IMG/VR virus record: IMGVR_UViG_3300034198_015647
Span: 1-35,888 of that record
Source: a virus
DNA: 35,888 nucleotides
Reading direction: 5' to 3' (one strand)
How positions within the stretch are numbered: the stretch's first letter is position 1; every line of letters starts with the position of its first letter. Shown here piece by piece: positions 8,033 to 25,991 of this stretch. The notes below the pieces were generated by a model. That model saw only the letters and a list, made by a program, of their open reading frames with translations. It ran no database searches and had not been told where the DNA came from. The translations under genes and the position numbers were made by a program.

Positions 8033-8450
8033 GTCGGCCGTGGATCAAGCCGTTATCGCGGCGCTCAGGGCCGATAGCGTTTTGATGGCGGCGGCGCCTG
8101 GCGGTGTGTTTCGCGACGTGGCGCCGGCTGGCGTGTCTGAGCCGTATGGAATTGTCACGCTCCAGAGTGCGGCCGATGCGTACGGCATTGCAGGATGCGC
8201 CGCGCTCGAGCGTGCGGTGTATCTCGTGAAGTGGGTACAGGAAGCCAACGCGAGCGCCGGCGTTCAAGCTGCGGCGGATCGTGCGCACGTCGTTTTGCAA
8301 GGCGCCACGCTCACGGCGTCCGATCGGCGTGTGTTGAATGTGCAGCGAGTGGAGCGTATCGCCTATGTCGAGACTGTAGACGAATCCGAACGGCGGTTTC
8401 AGCATCGGGGCGGGTTGTATGAGGTTGAGTCTGAGGCGGTGTCGGCGTGA
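8025..8450 (+). CDS. Tail terminator-like protein (DUF3168-like)
   Basis: A 141-residue protein starting MSESAVDQAVIAALRADSVL, followed by GGVFRDVAPAGVSEPYGIVTLQS and a longer strand-helix body. This matches the general plan of tail terminators (a short helix, a gxVyd-type segment, PYv-type segment, then alternating helices and strands). Position after the gp10-like gene is also where the terminator is expected. GTG 8025 overlaps the previous gene by eight bases, and its stop overlaps the glycosyltransferase start (GTGA). The call relies on gene order plus pattern. Confidence 0.72.
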   Translation: MSESAVDQAVIAALRADSVLMAAAPGGVFRDVAPAGVSEPYGIVTLQSAADAYGIAGCAALERAVYLVKWVQEANASAGVQAAADRAHVVLQGATLTASDRRVLNVQRVERIAYVETVDESERRFQHRGGLYEVESEAVSA

Positions 8451-9520
8451 GTAAGTTTCTGGTTGTACATCCTGGCGCATCGTGGGCGACACACGACGTA
8501 TACGTGGGCGTCGTGGAAGGTCTGCGCGCGCGTGGTTGTGCGGTGGCCGAGTTCCGTCTCGATGGTCGTCTCGAGCGCTCGCGCGATTTTCTCCACTTCC
8601 TATGGCGCCGTCAAAAGCGCGCCGCGGCCGAGCGCAAATGGCCGAAACCGACACTCGGCGACGTGCTCTTTATGGCGTCGCAAGGGATCATCGAGCGCGC
8701 GCTCGAGCGTGGCTGTACTGACGTGCTCTTTATCTCGGCGTCGTTTCTGCCGGCCGAGCGGCTCGAGTTGGCGCGCCGCGCGGGGCTGCGCGTCTGGATG
8801 CTTTGCACGGAAACGCCTTACGAGATGGCGCGCGAGCTCGAGTTGGCGTCGATGGCCGATGGTGTGTGGACGCATGAGCGCGCGGCGTTGCCGGCGTTTC
8901 GCGCGGTCAATCCGCGCGCGGAGTATCTGCCGCACGCGTGGCGGTCGGGCGTGCATGATGCGCCGGCGGCGCCTGAGTCGCCAGAGTGCGATGTGCTGTT
9001 TTGCGGCTCGATGTTTCCTGAGCGTGCGGCGTGGTTCGAGTCGATCAATTGGGACGGGATCAATCTTGCGCTCTATGGCAATTTTGACGGCCTGGCGCCG
9101 CGGTCTCCGCTGCGGAAATTTATCCGCGGTGGTTTGGTCCCGAATGGCGCGCTCGTGAGTCTCGCGCGTCGTTCGCGCATTGTCTTAAATTTCTTCCGCG
9201 CGCCTGAGTCCGGCGTGCCGGCTGAGAGTCTCAATCCGCGCTGCTATGAAATGGCGGCGGCGCGCGTGTGCTTGGTAACGGATCGACGCTCCGAGGTGCT
9301 CGAGAAGTTCGGCGAAGCTGTGCCGACATTCTCGACGCCGGCGGAGGCTGAGACGCTCATTCGCGCGCTCTTGGCTGACGACGAACGGCGTACAGCGTGC
9401 GCGGCATCGGCCGCGCGTGCGGTGGCGGCGGATACGTGGGGCGCTCGCGTTGAGCAAATGTTGGCGAATGTGGCGGCGTGGCGCTCGAGCGCTTCGGCGT
9501 CGTTGAAAAAGGGGGCGTAA
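8447..9520 (+). CDS. Glycosyltransferase, CgeB/GT group 1-like
   Basis: A 357-residue protein resembling CgeB-type glycosyltransferases. The N-half is a Rossmann-like domain (HPGASWATHDVYVGVVEGL at 8-26, then VLFISASFLP and VWMLCTETPYE). The C-half has the sugar-nucleotide-binding GT group 1 pattern: CDVLFCGSMFPER, NFFRAPESGVPAESLNPRCYEMAA, CLVTDRRSEVLEKFGEAVPTFSTPAEAETLI and a TW box at the end. It would transfer a sugar from an activated donor; the acceptor is unknown. It sits in the tail module, overlapped by the tail terminator gene and four bases before the tail tube gene, so a virion protein is a plausible acceptor. A role in altering host surface glycans is the main alternative. Confidence 0.85.
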   Translation: MSKFLVVHPGASWATHDVYVGVVEGLRARGCAVAEFRLDGRLERSRDFLHFLWRRQKRAAAERKWPKPTLGDVLFMASQGIIERALERGCTDVLFISASFLPAERLELARRAGLRVWMLCTETPYEMARELELASMADGVWTHERAALPAFRAVNPRAEYLPHAWRSGVHDAPAAPESPECDVLFCGSMFPERAAWFESINWDGINLALYGNFDGLAPRSPLRKFIRGGLVPNGALVSLARRSRIVLNFFRAPESGVPAESLNPRCYEMAAARVCLVTDRRSEVLEKFGEAVPTFSTPAEAETLIRALLADDERRTACAASAARAVAADTWGARVEQMLANVAAWRSSASASLKKGA

Positions 9521-21630: not shown

Positions 21631-22151
21631 TGGAGTGGCTCGCGGCCGAGCTTGCGCTCGAGGCGCCGCGCGCCGCGGTGCTCGAGATCGGCTCGCGCAA
21701 TGTGAACGGCTCCGCGCGCGAGGCGTTCAACATGGCCGCGCGGTACTGGGGCGTCGATATCGCGGCCGGGCCGGGCGTGGATCAGGTGGCCGACGGCGCG
21801 GCCGTCGTTCCGCCGTTTGAGCCCGATACGGTCGTGTGTTGCGAGGTGCTCGAGCATACGCCGGCGTGGCGCGAGATCGTTCGGCACGCGTGCGAGGTAT
21901 TGGCGCCGGGCGGCTTGTTGCTCGTGACGGCGGCGTGTGATCCGCGCGCGCCGCATTCGGCGACCGATGGCGGCCGCGTGCGCGTCGGCGAGTATTACGG
22001 GAACGTTGAGCCGGCCGAGCTCGGCGCGGTGGTGCGCGAGGCCGGCTTGGCTGGGCGTGTGAGCGTGTTTCTCGAGCGGGGCGACGTGTACGTGGTGGGG
22101 CGTAAGCCGTGGTCGTCGGTGGCGCTCGAGCGCTCGGAGGTGGTGTCGTGA
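21615..22151 (+). CDS. Class I SAM-dependent methyltransferase
   Basis: A 178-residue enzyme. Motif I is VLEIGSRNVNGSAR (about 22-35), followed by YWGVDIAAGPGVD, VVCCEVLEHTPAWREI (acidic motif) and CEVLAPGGLLLVTAAC, all typical of Methyltransf_11-type enzymes. The C-end is a strand-rich cap. The acceptor cannot be predicted. GTG 21615 overlaps the kinase; ATG 21630 (TAATG) is an alternative start five residues later. Translational coupling to the kinase suggests a shared pathway, perhaps nucleotide or DNA modification. Confidence 0.82.
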   Translation: MHRPVMEWLAAELALEAPRAAVLEIGSRNVNGSAREAFNMAARYWGVDIAAGPGVDQVADGAAVVPPFEPDTVVCCEVLEHTPAWREIVRHACEVLAPGGLLLVTAACDPRAPHSATDGGRVRVGEYYGNVEPAELGAVVREAGLAGRVSVFLERGDVYVVGRKPWSSVALERSEVVS

Positions 22152-22429
22152 TTGGGGCGCGTGGCGGGTTGGCGATTGCCGGCCGCGCGTTCTTGCAAGT
22201 GGTCCTCGTGTCGGCGCAAACGGTGACGCTCGCGGCGTATCAGCAGCACGGCGAGCCGTGGCGGCTGGCAGTCGCTGGCGCCGTCGCGTTCTCGATTTCG
22301 TGGGTATGGTGGGCGAATGCGCGCGCGGCGACGCTCTCGAGCGTGCCGGCGGGGCGGTGGTGGTATGCCGGCGGCGCCGCGGCCGGTACGTTGGCCGGCG
22401 CGGCGTCTATGGGCTGGTTGATGCGTTAG
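22148..22429 (+). CDS. Small membrane protein
   Basis: A 93-residue protein with three hydrophobic spans: about 6-32 (LAIAGRAFLQVVLVSAQTV), 38-58 (WRLAVAGAVAFSISWVWWA) and 70-90 (YAGGAAAGTLAGAASMGWLM). No signal peptidase site. GTG 22148 overlaps the methyltransferase stop (GTGA). Holin-like topology is possible, but its distance from the endolysin makes other roles likely. Its 3' end overlaps a minus-strand gene by 23 bases. Confidence 0.7.
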   Translation: MIGARGGLAIAGRAFLQVVLVSAQTVTLAAYQQHGEPWRLAVAGAVAFSISWVWWANARAATLSSVPAGRWWYAGGAAAGTLAGAASMGWLMR

Positions 22430-22619
22430 CGTTTCTGCCCGTTCGGCGTGCAAAAGGCCTTAGCGGCCGCGCTTTGCGAAGGTGCGCGCGCAGTGCCCGT
22501 TGCCCGATAAGCGCTAAGCCCGACGGTGTGAGTACTAGGCGCCGCCTGTCGCGATTCCGGCGATACCTAAGTAAGCGGCGCGGGACATTGAAAAGTCGAG
22601 CGATAAAAGATTTTTTCAT
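22407..22619 (-). CDS. Basic protein, third gene of minus-strand cassette
   Basis: A 70-residue very basic protein starting MKKSFIARLFNV, with many Arg (about a quarter of residues) and a central LVLTPSGLALIGQRAL segment reminiscent of a winged-helix wing. ATG 22619 overlaps the upstream gene's TGA in ATGA, indicating coupled translation. Codon choice (TTA, CTT, AGG) differs from the plus-strand genes. It runs 23 bases into the end of the convergent membrane-protein gene. DNA or RNA binding is suggested only by charge. It could also be a chance frame. Confidence 0.4.
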   Translation of the reverse strand: MKKSFIARLFNVPRRLLRYRRNRDRRRLVLTPSGLALIGQRALRAHLRKARPLRPFARRTGRNANASTSP

Positions 22620-22783
22620 TTCGGTCGCAGGGGGCACAGTACAACAACAAGGTATTGTCGAGTATCTCCCAATGCGGTGGCGTCGGCGAGCTCGTGGCCG
22701 CCGAGCAGGTAGCCTGGGAGAATGGGTTGTTGGCACGTCGGGCAGAACGCCGGCCGCGGTGGTAGCAGTGGCGCGGCGCTCAC
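22616..22783 (-). CDS. Cys-containing small protein, second gene of minus-strand cassette
   Basis: A 55-residue protein starting MSAAPLLPPRPAFCPTC, with Cys14 and Cys17 forming a C-x2-C knuckle and possible further ligands His30 and Cys50. GTG 22783 overlaps the upstream TGA in GTGA, and the stop overlaps the next ATG in ATGA. The reading frame is too short for usual ORF cut-offs. It is probably a zinc-binding module, but only one complete knuckle is visible. The tight overlaps on both sides are the strongest evidence that it is real. Confidence 0.5.
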   Translation of the reverse strand: MSAAPLLPPRPAFCPTCQQPILPGYLLGGHELADATALGDTRQYLVVVLCPLRPK

Positions 22784-22944
22784 TGTGTGACGCCTTCCGA
22801 ATGTAGGCCGATCAGGCCGACGGCGAGAAATCCGGCGCCAGTGACCGGCGCGCCGGTGGCGAGCATGAGCGCGCCGGCGACGATGACGGCGACAATCATC
22901 GAACCAATCACAAGACGATAGAGCAATGGGGCGCGGTGCGTCAT
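22780..22944 (-). CDS. Small membrane protein, first gene of minus-strand cassette
   Basis: A 54-residue protein, MTHRAPLLYRLVIGSMIVAVIVAG then a second hydrophobic stretch, giving two probable spans (about 9-30 and 32-48) with a short polar C-end. It starts at ATG 22944 on the minus strand, only eight bases after a CATAAT -10-like box, so its mRNA may be leaderless. It overlaps the next minus-strand gene by GTGA. A perfect 17-bp palindrome lies in its promoter. In a prophage it would be a candidate superinfection-exclusion or lysogeny factor. No homology is claimed. Confidence 0.58.
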   Translation of the reverse strand: MTHRAPLLYRLVIGSMIVAVIVAGALMLATGAPVTGAGFLAVGLIGLHSEGVTQ

Positions 22945-22952
22945 GGGTAGAG

Positions 22953-22979
22953 ATTATGACAATTTGTCATAGAGTGCAA
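22953..22979 (-). promoter_or_regulatory. Minus-strand promoter with operator O1
   Basis: On the minus strand, TTGCAC (22979-22974) and CATAAT (22958-22953) form -35 and -10 candidates separated by 15 bases. The perfect palindrome TATGACAATTTGTCATA (22955-22971, 8-bp arms around one base) fills the promoter. Binding there would block polymerase. The -10 match is good, the spacing is short. Confidence 0.6.
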
Positions 22980-23022
22980 GTTGTAATTGTGACTGCGCGC
23001 TGACCGAGTTGTGAGTGCTTTT

Positions 23023-23039
23023 TATGACGAATGCGCATA
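23023..23039 (+). promoter_or_regulatory. Operator-like site O2 upstream of repressor
   Basis: TATGACGAATGCGCATA matches O1 at 12 of 17 positions, keeping the outer TATGAC and CATA. It is 78 bases before the repressor ATG, in the divergent promoter region, where autoregulation would be expected. Symmetry is weaker than in O1. The -35 and -10 for the repressor are not clear. Confidence 0.5.
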
Positions 23040-23116
23040 GAGTTAAAACATTGAGGCTCTAGCGTTTACCTCTCGTGGGAGGGGCGAAACGGCCGGGGCA
23101 AAGGTGGGTTAGAGGT

Positions 23117-23497
23117 ATGGTCGCGCGTCATTCTCGGTCGTTGTCGGATTTAGTGCGTCGGCGGCTGGCGGCGCATCTCGAGGGCATGCCGGCGCGGCCG
23201 ACGCAATCGGCCATTGCCGACGCGCTCGGCGTGACGCAAACGTGGGTCTCTCATTACTTCCGCGGTCGGCACGATGTAGACCTAGACACGTTGGCGAAGC
23301 TGGCCGACTTTCTCGGCGTGCGGCTCGAGTCGCTCGTGGCTGACTCGGAGAATGCCAAGGCGGTAAGCGCGCATCCGGCCGGCTTTGGCGAGGTGTGGAC
23401 GTTGCTGCAATCGGTGACGCCGGCCGAGCGGGACGTGGTACGCGACGTGTTGCGCGTGGTGGCTCGGCGTCCGGCGTCGAAGCGCGCGCGCGTCTGA
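23117..23497 (+). CDS. XRE-family repressor, putative CI
   Basis: A 126-residue DNA-binding protein. The HTH lies at about residues 28-58: QSAIADALGVTQTWVSHYFRG, followed by the fourth-helix region DVDLDTLAKLADFLGV. The C-end is helical and basic, without a LexA-type peptidase domain, so induction would not be by RecA-stimulated self-cleavage. ATG 23117 is chosen (AAAGG about ten bases upstream); GTG 23075 is in frame. It lies divergent to the minus-strand cassette and next to the integrase. Together with the operators this makes it the best candidate for lysogeny repressor, though a Cro-like role is not excluded. Confidence 0.75.
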   Translation: MVARHSRSLSDLVRRRLAAHLEGMPARPTQSAIADALGVTQTWVSHYFRGRHDVDLDTLAKLADFLGVRLESLVADSENAKAVSAHPAGFGEVWTLLQSVTPAERDVVRDVLRVVARRPASKRARV

Positions 23498-23504
23498 GGG
23501 CATC

Positions 23505-24659
23505 GTGGGCCGCGGCAAGCGGCGCCGGCTGGCGGCCGGCGTCTATTCGGACGGATCAGGGGTCGCGCTCGTGGTGTGGTCGCACGGCCGGCAAATTGAG
23601 CGGCGGTTGCCGGCCGGGCTCGAGCTCGCCGAGCTCAAGCGGCTCCGCGCGCAAATGCGGCTCGAGCTCGAGGCCGAGGCGCCGGCGGCCGTCACGCGTG
23701 GCACGTTCGAGGCCGACGTGGCGCGCTATCTGGATCTTTCGACGGCGCTCGCGGCCTGGAAGTCTCGGCGCTCGGAGTTGCGCGCCTGGTCGGATCTCTA
23801 CGGCCGGCGCGCGCGGTTCTCGCTGGTGCGCGCGGATGTGCTCGGCGCGATGGCGACGTGGCGCGCGGCCGGCGCGTCACCAAAGACCATCAACAATCGG
23901 GTAATCGCGCTCCGTGCGCTGTACGCCACGCTCGATGGTCCTGAGCGCGCATGCCCGGCGGATTATGTGCGGCCGCTCGAGGTGCCGCGCGCGCCGGCGC
24001 TCGTGGTGACGGCGGCGACCATTGCCGAGGTGTACGCGCGCCTGAGTACGGCCATTGCCGATCAGGCGAGCACGCGGCCGCGGTCGCATCATCGGATAGA
24101 CCGGCCGCGGTTGCGGCATCTTGTGACCACGCGCGCGCGGTTTCGTTTGCTCGCGGTGTCCGGTGTGCGGCCGTCGGAATTGATGCGCGCGCGGCCGGAA
24201 GATTTCGACCTAGACCGGCGGGTCTGGCTGACGCGTGACGGCAAGGGCGGCCGCCGGCCGGCCGGCGTGCCGATTACCGAGGCGGTCGAGGCGGCCGTGC
24301 GCGAGTTTATCGAGGCCGGGGCGTTCGGGAAATTCGATACGGGCGTGTTTGCTGATACGGTGCGGCGGTTCGGCTGGCCGGCGCATCTGCGGCCGTATGC
24401 GTTGCGACGGACGCTTGGGCAAGCGCTCACGGCTGAGGGCGTAGACCTGGCCGATACGGCGGCGTTGCTCGGCCATCGGCGCATCGACACGACGCGTCAA
24501 TTTTACGTGCCGGCGCGCGATGAGCAATTACGCGGCGCGCTCGAGCGGCTCGACGCACGCGTGGCGTTCGAGGGGGCCGGCGTGCCGGCGTTGCCGGCGC
24601 CGGACGGTCCGGCGCGGCGCGTGGTGCGCCGGCGCCGTGCGTGGAGTTCGGGAACGTGA
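23505..24659 (+). CDS. int: Tyrosine integrase
   Basis: A 384-residue site-specific recombinase. An N-terminal arm-binding region of about 65 residues is followed by the core-binding domain (about 70-150) and the catalytic domain (about 165-350). Catalytic residues: Arg222 in SGVRPSEL, Lys247 in DGKGG, Arg301 in RPYALRRT, His324 in LLGHRRIDTT and the nucleophile Tyr334. The first box II histidine is Tyr (Y298), a known variation. GTG 23505 follows the repressor by seven bases. The attP lies directly downstream. Confidence 0.92.
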   Translation: MGRGKRRRLAAGVYSDGSGVALVVWSHGRQIERRLPAGLELAELKRLRAQMRLELEAEAPAAVTRGTFEADVARYLDLSTALAAWKSRRSELRAWSDLYGRRARFSLVRADVLGAMATWRAAGASPKTINNRVIALRALYATLDGPERACPADYVRPLEVPRAPALVVTAATIAEVYARLSTAIADQASTRPRSHHRIDRPRLRHLVTTRARFRLLAVSGVRPSELMRARPEDFDLDRRVWLTRDGKGGRRPAGVPITEAVEAAVREFIEAGAFGKFDTGVFADTVRRFGWPAHLRPYALRRTLGQALTAEGVDLADTAALLGHRRIDTTRQFYVPARDEQLRGALERLDARVAFEGAGVPALPAPDGPARRVVRRRRAWSSGT

Positions 24660-24690
24660 TACAGTCCCTTTTGTCGTCGGAATGGCTCGA

Positions 24691-24714
24691 GTACATGGCA
24701 CGGCGACATGGCAC
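24691..24714 (+). repeat. Left arm-type repeat pair beside attP
   Basis: Two copies of ATGGCAC (24695-24701 and 24708-24714), 13 bases apart. The first is part of GTACATGGCACGG, repeated at 24930. The pair ends 10 bases before the tRNA-like core. They look like integrase arm-binding sites. Confidence 0.65.
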
Positions 24715-24724
24715 TAACCATCGT

Positions 24725-24765
24725 CGCGGGGTGGAGCAGTCCGGTAGCTCGTTGGGCTCATAACC
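24725..24765 (+). other. attP: attP core candidate: 5' half of initiator tRNA-Met
   Basis: Forty-one bases read as the first half of a bacterial initiator tRNA-Met: acceptor strand CGCGGGG (initial C1), the D arm GAGCAGTCCGGTAGCTC, then TTGGG and the loop CTCATAA with anticodon CAT at 24759-24761. The match stops after CC at 24765, within the 3' anticodon stem; no T arm or 3' acceptor follows. It starts 66 bases after int. This is the expected form of a tRNA-gene attachment core, but with the 5' part carried by the phage. Confidence 0.75.
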
Positions 24766-24784
24766 GGCGCGGCGAATGTGCAAA

Positions 24785-24806
24785 ATCGGCCGAGTTCTTC
24801 GGCGAT
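24785..24806 (+). terminator. Hairpin after attP core, possible terminator
   Basis: ATCGGCCGA (24785-24793) pairs with TCGGCGAT (24799-24806) with one bulged base, around a five-base loop, and is followed by TCTCTCTCC. It could end integrase transcription. The pyrimidine tail is imperfect. Confidence 0.35.
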
Positions 24807-24929
24807 TCTCTCTCCTGAAAATGACGGAAACGTATAGAGCTATAGGGCCAAAATTGGGTCGATAGCTCGGCGCGCGCGTTGGGGCGTTTCGCGCCAAAAA
24901 ATGACAATTCGTGACGTGTTACGACGCGC

Positions 24930-24953
24930 GTACATGGCACGGACGCATGGCAC
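24930..24953 (+). repeat. Right arm-type repeat pair beside attP
   Basis: Two copies of ATGGCAC (24934-24940 and 24947-24953), again 13 bases apart, beginning with GTACATGGCACGG identical to 24691-24703. They flank the att core on the far side, about 165 bases away. Equal spacing in both pairs supports cooperative integrase binding. Confidence 0.65.
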
Positions 24954-25034
24954 GCGCGCGCGCTGATTAAAAAACTCTAAGGATTGGTAAATACACATGC
25001 TGAGCTCGGCGTTTCGGTAAAGCGGGGGGAATTT

Positions 25035-25175
25035 GTGTCTATGCCGTATCGGTCGGGTGGTCTCGTTGTACTCAAGGCGGCGGCGGCCGTCCTGGCGGTC
25101 TCTCAGGGTAGCAAAGTGGCTGCCGCGGCGCGTGTGTTGGCGGCGGCGCTGCGTGTCGTCAGGCGCCGTAAATAA
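25035..25175 (+). CDS. Short Ala/Arg-rich protein, uncertain
   Basis: A 46-codon frame (GTG 25035; ATG 25041 possible) coding for a helical Ala- and Val-rich peptide with a basic end (RVVRRRK). GCGGGGGGA lies at a suitable distance upstream. It could be a small membrane-active or DNA-associated peptide. It has no recognised motif. A CGCCGT/ACGGCG inverted repeat surrounds its stop. Confidence 0.35.
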   Translation: MSMPYRSGGLVVLKAAAAVLAVSQGSKVAAAARVLAAALRVVRRRK

Positions 25176-25193
25176 AAAAATCTCGCACGGCGT

Positions 25194-25222
25194 TTGACTT
25201 ATGCTGATTTGTCATATAGGGT
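25194..25222 (+). promoter_or_regulatory. Early promoter with operator O3 in the spacer
   Basis: TTGACT (25194-25199) and TAGGGT (25217-25222) are exactly 17 bases apart, and the spacer is the operator-like TATGCTGATTTGTCATA (14 of 17 bases equal to O1). Transcription would begin a few bases before the ATG at 25232, so the first early mRNA is nearly leaderless; there is no ribosome site. This should be the lytic early promoter controlled by the repressor. Confidence 0.72.
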
Positions 25223-25231
25223 TATTCCGCA

Positions 25232-25438
25232 ATGGCGACGAGCGGAACTTCTCACACAGTCGGACGGGTGCTCACGCGCGTGATGCGTGAGCGCCGGTGT
25301 AATCAAACCGAGCTCGCGCGCGCGTTTCGCGTGCCGCAATCGACGCTCTCACGTTGGATGGCCGGCGAGCGACGACCGCGCGAGCGGCGGGCGCGTCTCG
25401 AGCTTTTGCGGCTTGGCGTTGATCCGCGGTGGCTCTGA
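25232..25438 (+). CDS. Cro-like XRE HTH protein
   Basis: A 68-residue protein with a clear HTH (CNQTELARAFRVPQSTLSRWMAGERRP, about 23-49) and little else, as in Cro-type proteins. It is the first gene of the early operon, right behind the operator-containing promoter, opposite in role to the repressor at 23117. ATG 25232 has no ribosome site, in line with a leaderless start. Its stop overlaps the next ATG (TGATG). Confidence 0.8.
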   Translation: MATSGTSHTVGRVLTRVMRERRCNQTELARAFRVPQSTLSRWMAGERRPRERRARLELLRLGVDPRWL

Positions 25439-25671
25439 TGGCGCTGCGCATGGGCGAGGTCTCCGAGTCCAGAAACCGCGCGGCCGGCGAGTTGCCGTTG
25501 GTGCTCGTGATTGCCGAGGTGGCCGAGCTCTTTCGGTGCTCGGTGCGCACGGTCGAGCGCCGGTTGGCCGAGAACACGTTTCCCGTTTTACCGATGCGCG
25601 AGTTCTCGAGGGGCTCGCGTCGGTGGCGCCGCGATGAGGTGTTGCGCTGGCTCGAGCGGGGGCGCCGGTGA
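25438..25671 (+). CDS. Excisionase-like HTH protein
   Basis: A 77-residue protein with LVIAEVAELFRCSVRTVERRL (about 23-43) and a following wing (FPVLPMREFSRGSRRWRRDEVLRWLE). This is the HTH_17/MerR pattern of phage excisionases. Location in the first early genes, within 800 bases of attP, fits a directionality factor. It could also be a transcription regulator. Its stop overlaps the next GTG. Confidence 0.75.
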   Translation: MALRMGEVSESRNRAAGELPLVLVIAEVAELFRCSVRTVERRLAENTFPVLPMREFSRGSRRWRRDEVLRWLERGRR

Positions 25672-25991
25672 GCGCGTTGGCCGAGTGGCGCGCGTTCGTG
25701 GATGCGCAAACGTTCAAGCCGTCGCGCTCGGAATTTGTGAAGGCGTGGCGCGGTATGAGCGGCGGCAAGAATCCGCCGGCCGCGGCGCTCGAGCATTATG
25801 GCGCGCGCGTGGTTCGGTTGTTCGCTGCGGCGTGCGTCGAGGCTCCGGTCGAAATGCTCGAGGAAGATTTGTACCCGGCGGTTGATCTTGCCGACGGTGG
25901 TGACGTGCTCGGTTGGCCGTTGCCAACATTGCCGGAAGTGAAGCGCGCGCGGTTCGTGCTCAATCGTGAGCTCATGGGAGGGCGGCGCTAA
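25668..25991 (+). CDS. Early protein, unknown
   Basis: A 107-residue protein with no known motif. The N-half is rich in aromatic and basic residues (EWRAFVDAQTFKPSRSEFVKAWRGM), the middle is helical, and the end is Pro- and Asp-containing. GTG 25668 overlaps the preceding gene by four bases and its stop overlaps the next ATG (TAATG). Co-expression with HTH genes is all that can be said. Confidence 0.65.
   Translation: MSALAEWRAFVDAQTFKPSRSEFVKAWRGMSGGKNPPAAALEHYGARVVRLFAAACVEAPVEMLEEDLYPAVDLADGGDVLGWPLPTLPEVKRARFVLNRELMGGRR

Follow-up and report, generated by a model that had tools for sequence, protein, structure and literature searches.

A probable phage attachment site of reversed polarity carrying the 5' half of a bacterial initiator tRNA-Met gene

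The DNA analysed here, hereafter the window, is a metagenomic contig of 35,888 nucleotides; it is not closed, runs from the terminase region to a predicted HNH gene and looks near-complete. A tyrosine integrase is encoded at 23505-24659 on the plus strand (Phage_integrase, E 2.8e-14; phrog_1, E 3.9e-26; alignment). All features given below are also on the plus strand. Aligned with its family, the integrase has the conserved R222, R301, H324 and Y334, and the box-II His is replaced by Tyr (Y298) in the whole family. Its start is 7 bp past the stop codon of a helix-turn-helix (HTH) repressor candidate (23075-23497; HTH_3, E 1.4e-9; PHROG transcriptional repressors). Upstream of the repressor gene is a near-perfect palindrome, TATGACAATTTGTCATA (22955-22971), a likely operator. 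A weaker copy of the palindrome at 25200-25216 precedes the next HTH gene; 0.04 matches were expected, and none of 100 shuffles reached three. This next gene is Cro/Xre-like by domain and PHROG searches (25232-25438) and presumably opens an early operon beyond the site described below. It is followed by an HTH_17 protein (25429-25671; PF12728, E 1.9e-8; phrog_66 excisionase, E 4.3e-8) that is a candidate excisionase. Farther away, amid the tail genes, positions 8447-9520 encode a predicted 357-aa protein, glycosyltransferase-like and 54% identical to its counterpart in L004.

Between these two sets of genes, starting 65 bp past the integrase stop codon, the 41 bases at 24725-24765 (CGCGGGGTGGAGCAGTCCGGTAGCTCGTTGGGCTCATAACC) are the exact 5' half of a bacterial initiator tRNA-Met gene. 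The complete initiator tRNA-Met genes of viral contigs L002 and L003 contain all 41 bases, as do those of two acidobacterial genomes, G934 and G1182. With the G934 gene, identity covers 43 bases (24723-24765). Elsewhere in the window the second-best site for the half matches at 24 of 41 bases. No complete tRNA is detected in the window by ARAGORN or Rfam, and a search of the whole window found no 3' half. The preliminary description had named this stretch as the 5' half of initiator tRNA-Met, which the 41 of 41 matches to complete genes and the absence of the 3' half confirm. It had the half reach up to the anticodon stem, which understates the extent, as the half begins at base 1, includes all of the anticodon loop and ends two bases into the 3' strand of the anticodon stem. 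The search for a bacterial initiator tRNA with these bases that it proposed succeeded with G934 and G1182. We also considered whether the sequence right of the core is what remains of a 3' half; 16 of 38 positions match without gaps (P 0.02 ungapped, 0.09-0.26 in other tests), and no such remnant is claimed. In the phage collection, the four matches to the half that were checked are complete tRNAs.

The half has the surroundings of an attachment site. The anticodon loop CTCATAA (24757-24763) is the presumed 7-bp overlap region for strand exchange, its boundary being shared with relatives: the same seven bases limit the tRNA homology in the phages L074 and L069/L075 and in displaced tRNA fragments of genomes G934 and G1176. 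Putative arm sites are repeated on both sides of this core. The P arm (24694-24714) has two CATGGCAC repeats, at 24694 and 24707, 63 and 50 bp before the overlap, and the P' arm (24933-24953) has two, at 24933 and 24946, 176 and 189 bp after the overlap start. The repeat is found five times in the window, versus 0.35 expected in a shuffled genome. Just past the half, a hairpin with a T-rich tail (24789-24803) may act as a terminator for the displaced host 5' half, such predictions being no more numerous here than in shuffles. As the half lies closely behind a tyrosine integrase gene with its catalytic residues, and between paired arms, 24725-24765 is very probably a genuine attP, with a core identical to host tRNA and bounded at the anticodon loop. 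It carries the 5' part of the tRNA gene and not the 3' part, and is thus an attP of reversed polarity.

The main evidence for the attP comes from relatives. The nearest integrase homologue is that of L074 (45% identity in alignment). This phage has homologous genes on both sides of its attP, including an excisionase candidate and, ahead of the integrase, a repressor candidate (53%). After the integrase catalytic region, it has in order two CATGGAA, unrelated sequence, CTCATAA with a complete tRNA-Met 3' half, and two more CATGGAA. The arm distances are -71/-59 and +183/+196 in L074 versus -63/-50 and +176/+189 in the window. Joined together, the 5' half of the window and the 3' half of L074 give the tRNA-Met of L002. 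The phage C35/L075, probably circular as it has a 137-bp end repeat, also carries the 3' half, and L076-L081 carry the 3' part of an apparent tRNA-Gly. Since the window and L074 share neighbours, core and arms while L074 has the 3' half, we consider the window a reversed-polarity member of a family mostly of the usual polarity at the same gene. The adjoining integrase, the paired arms and a sister phage with an attP at the same site support the preliminary reading as attP. The window is opposite both to the usual polarity, as that reading also had it, and to family members at the same tRNA.

A second reversed member was found in L099, a phage contig (G1020:C402) with portal and major head protein genes. 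There, the 5' half of a tRNA-Arg, ending in the anticodon stem, comes after an HTH-like gene and a related integrase gene. This half begins 20 bp past the integrase stop, and GTGGCAC repeats flank both sides. In the integrase tree L099 is nearest the tRNA-Gly group and the window is beside L074, several forks being weakly supported. The sequence GCACTAAC is present shortly ahead of the tRNA half in both reversed members (2583-2590 in L099, 24711-24718 in the window); the distances differ and this may be chance. Comparison of 22100-25660 of the window with L074 shows the block of repressor, integrase and attP in opposite orientation with respect to the homologous genes around it. Flipping of the core, an idea from L069, was dropped as the origin of the reversal because the orientation of the overlap relative to the arms is the same in L074 and the window.

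The phage host is probably a member of the Acidobacteriota, as judged from relatives and tRNA identity. Of 396 Acidobacteriota, 11 have a match to the integrase at E 1e-8. At E 1e-10 none of the 398 genomes from the phylum to which Marinobacter L061 belongs has one, and one of 297 from a third phylum does, this one being C35; as the thresholds differ and most matches are distant, these counts are supporting evidence only. C35 (G049:C35, L070-L072) was rejected as a sign of a deltaproteobacterial host and is probably misbinned, since its tRNA 3' half mismatches the tRNA-Met of that genome and is identical to that of G934. In the acidobacterial genome G934 an integrase adjoins an intact tRNA-Met whose 5' half equals that of the window and whose 3' half equals that of C35. 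Repeats of similar geometry flank this site, and 48.3 kb off there is a displaced 3' half. The 48-kb element between the intact and displaced copies is consistent with a related prophage. Two more displaced 3' halves, both starting at CTCATAA, are in G1176, and the displaced fragments of the two genomes place the crossover region in the anticodon loop. G934, G1182 and G1206, all draft genomes, have one intact initiator tRNA gene apiece, in keeping with the earlier suggestion that an essential host tRNA is affected.

We joined the window and G934 in silico at CTCATAA. One intact tRNA-Met results, on the phage-integrase side, and none on the other, so the intact gene is regenerated downstream of phage sequence. 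This agrees with the preliminary proposal of an intact tRNA with a phage-supplied 5' half and upstream region. In nearly all tRNA-targeting elements the host promoter stays on the restored gene. The G934 gene has a promoter-like site, TTGGCA-17-TAGTAT (9/12), that would remain with the displaced 5' half, and as identity stops two bases before the tRNA the phage does not carry the host promoter.

In the explanation we favour, the window belongs to a temperate tailed phage, probably of Acidobacteriota, whose tyrosine integrase would recombine inside the anticodon loop CTCATAA of the host initiator tRNA. The tRNA 5' half is on the side of the attP that has the short arm and the integrase gene, and the opposite side has unrelated sequence. 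Integration would leave the host promoter and its 5' half beside the P' arm and early genes, that junction joining host promoter and 5' half to CCGGCGCGGCG. At the far end the phage 5' half and host 3' half would form an intact tRNA (window 24680-24763 joined to CCCAAAGGTCG), with repressor, integrase and tRNA codirectional. If the phage excised precisely, the host gene would be whole again under its own promoter, and lethality would follow only if the integrase end were deleted or decayed; to call the integration addictive, as was first done, is an overstatement. We hold with good confidence the explanation as a whole, that is, a reversed 5'-half attP at the initiator tRNA, a displaced host promoter and a tRNA placed behind repressor and integrase. 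Recombination and transcription are deduced from sequence, as no lysogen of the window phage or of L099 was found.

How the regenerated tRNA would be transcribed is less certain. Before the phage tRNA half the best sigma-70 promoter site scores 7/12 and before the repressor 8/12, both against a consensus from which acidobacterial promoters may depart. No good site was found at either place. The earlier claim that the tRNA would depend on a phage promoter is supported as to position, the in silico joined gene lying behind phage sequence; the promoter itself did not emerge from the search. No terminator is predicted between integrase and tRNA. The simplest reading is that the tRNA is probably made by read-through of the repressor-integrase operon, which would have to be active in the lysogen, and trimmed by RNase P. 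Integration could also occur as described with the tRNA transcribed from a weak local phage promoter in the integrase end or P arm. Such a promoter was demonstrated by reporter for the tRNA of phage Fionnbharth (PMC10865867), and acidobacterial promoters need not follow the consensus; yet the best site between integrase and tRNA matches 7/12 against 9/12 for the host's own, and L099 leaves only 20 bp from integrase stop to tRNA, so we think a local promoter unlikely, if a serious contender. We propose tentatively, with slightly more doubt than belief, that one integrase family switched attP polarity while overlap and arm geometry hardly changed, and that in reversed lysogens the repressor-integrase operon of the prophage ends with the only initiator tRNA gene of the host. 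If so, translation initiation and the maintenance of lysogeny would share one transcript.

It is very improbable that the half has nothing to do with attachment and is a captured or decayed tRNA gene or serves as a decoy RNA. Phages often carry tRNA genes, and complete tRNA-Met genes are present in many phage records. The half in the window, however, has no mismatch to host genes and stops in the anticodon stem; it lies between arm repeats beside an integrase, where the sister phage L074 has its anticodon-loop attP; and L099 has the same layout with a different tRNA. In three acidobacterial draft genomes a group I intron splits tRNA-Met at the same loop. A reading of the half as the 5' exon of such a split gene has next to no chance of being right and is refuted at the sensitivity of the searches run: the window contains no 3' exon, and 24600-25700 gave no group I intron match at E 5. 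The intron-split acidobacterial genes (L047 811-1027, L053 6473-6682, L056 7397-7625) are split at the site of the integrase family, and an intron there would remove the attachment site.

We also scanned for further reversed attP sites of this kind with patterns for a 5' half ending at this point. IMG/VR gave one match, L045, a mutated whole tRNA; among other viral-contig matches, L083 is chance and L084-L093 are complete tRNAs. The same pattern gave 18 matches in 84,980 genomes (L046-L063). These are sequence variants, partial duplications or deletions and intron-split genes, and none is an evident lysogen of this type, so the prophages ending at the half that the preliminary description suggested looking for did not appear. 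The patterns demand this tRNA and the exact end of the phage half, and records near the window may be missing; the scans thus give no measure of reversed elements in general. No related integrase was found in contigs with related terminases, many contigs being fragments. One of the matched genomes, Craterilacuibacter sinensis, has seven tandem tRNA-Met genes (L058 5240-6041), two with an altered anticodon-stem base.

Among the closest systems are the L074 and C35/L075 phages. Like the window they have a homologous integrase, the same tRNA gene and overlap and similar arm geometry, and unlike it they carry the tRNA 3' half; L074 additionally shares the flanking genes of the window, its repressor-integrase-attP block being inverted relative to the rest of its genome. 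The archaeal pTN3-like integrases have their attP inside the integrase gene, whereas the core in the window starts past the integrase stop codon. They use the tRNA gene 5' half as the window does, but belong to an archaeal plasmid family with suicidal integrases, while the window is from a bacterial phage with its attP outside the integrase gene. Their attB is the 5' half of the tRNA gene, the integrase promoter drives the restored tRNA, and a similar situation is seldom encountered in bacteria according to a review (PMC8371274). Recombination at the 5' part of tRNA genes is described as considerably rarer than at the 3' part (PMC6563490, citing Zhao & Williams 2002). Zhao & Williams (J Bacteriol 184:859, cited in PMC6563490) described an integrative element of reversed orientation that, like the window, recombines with the tRNA 5' part and so supplies the upstream side of the restored gene. 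As far as the citing description goes, the window differs from it in its initiator tRNA target and in close relatives that keep the usual polarity. The mode called unusual in the preliminary description is therefore rare and not unprecedented (PMC6563490, PMC8371274). In tRNA-dependent lysogeny, as in our model, the lysogen relies on phage DNA for an essential tRNA; there, the phage has a complete cognate tRNA gene, the common core is ~10 bp and integration rebuilds no tRNA (PMC10865867), none of which is true of the window. What is new here is the initiator tRNA as target and the close relatives of opposite polarity, the reversed polarity itself being known and rare. If the tRNA is transcribed from a prophage operon, lysogeny would put a gene of translation initiation under phage control. 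As the family uses both polarities at one gene that is essential and apparently single-copy, the reasons for the usual preference become testable with closely comparable phages.
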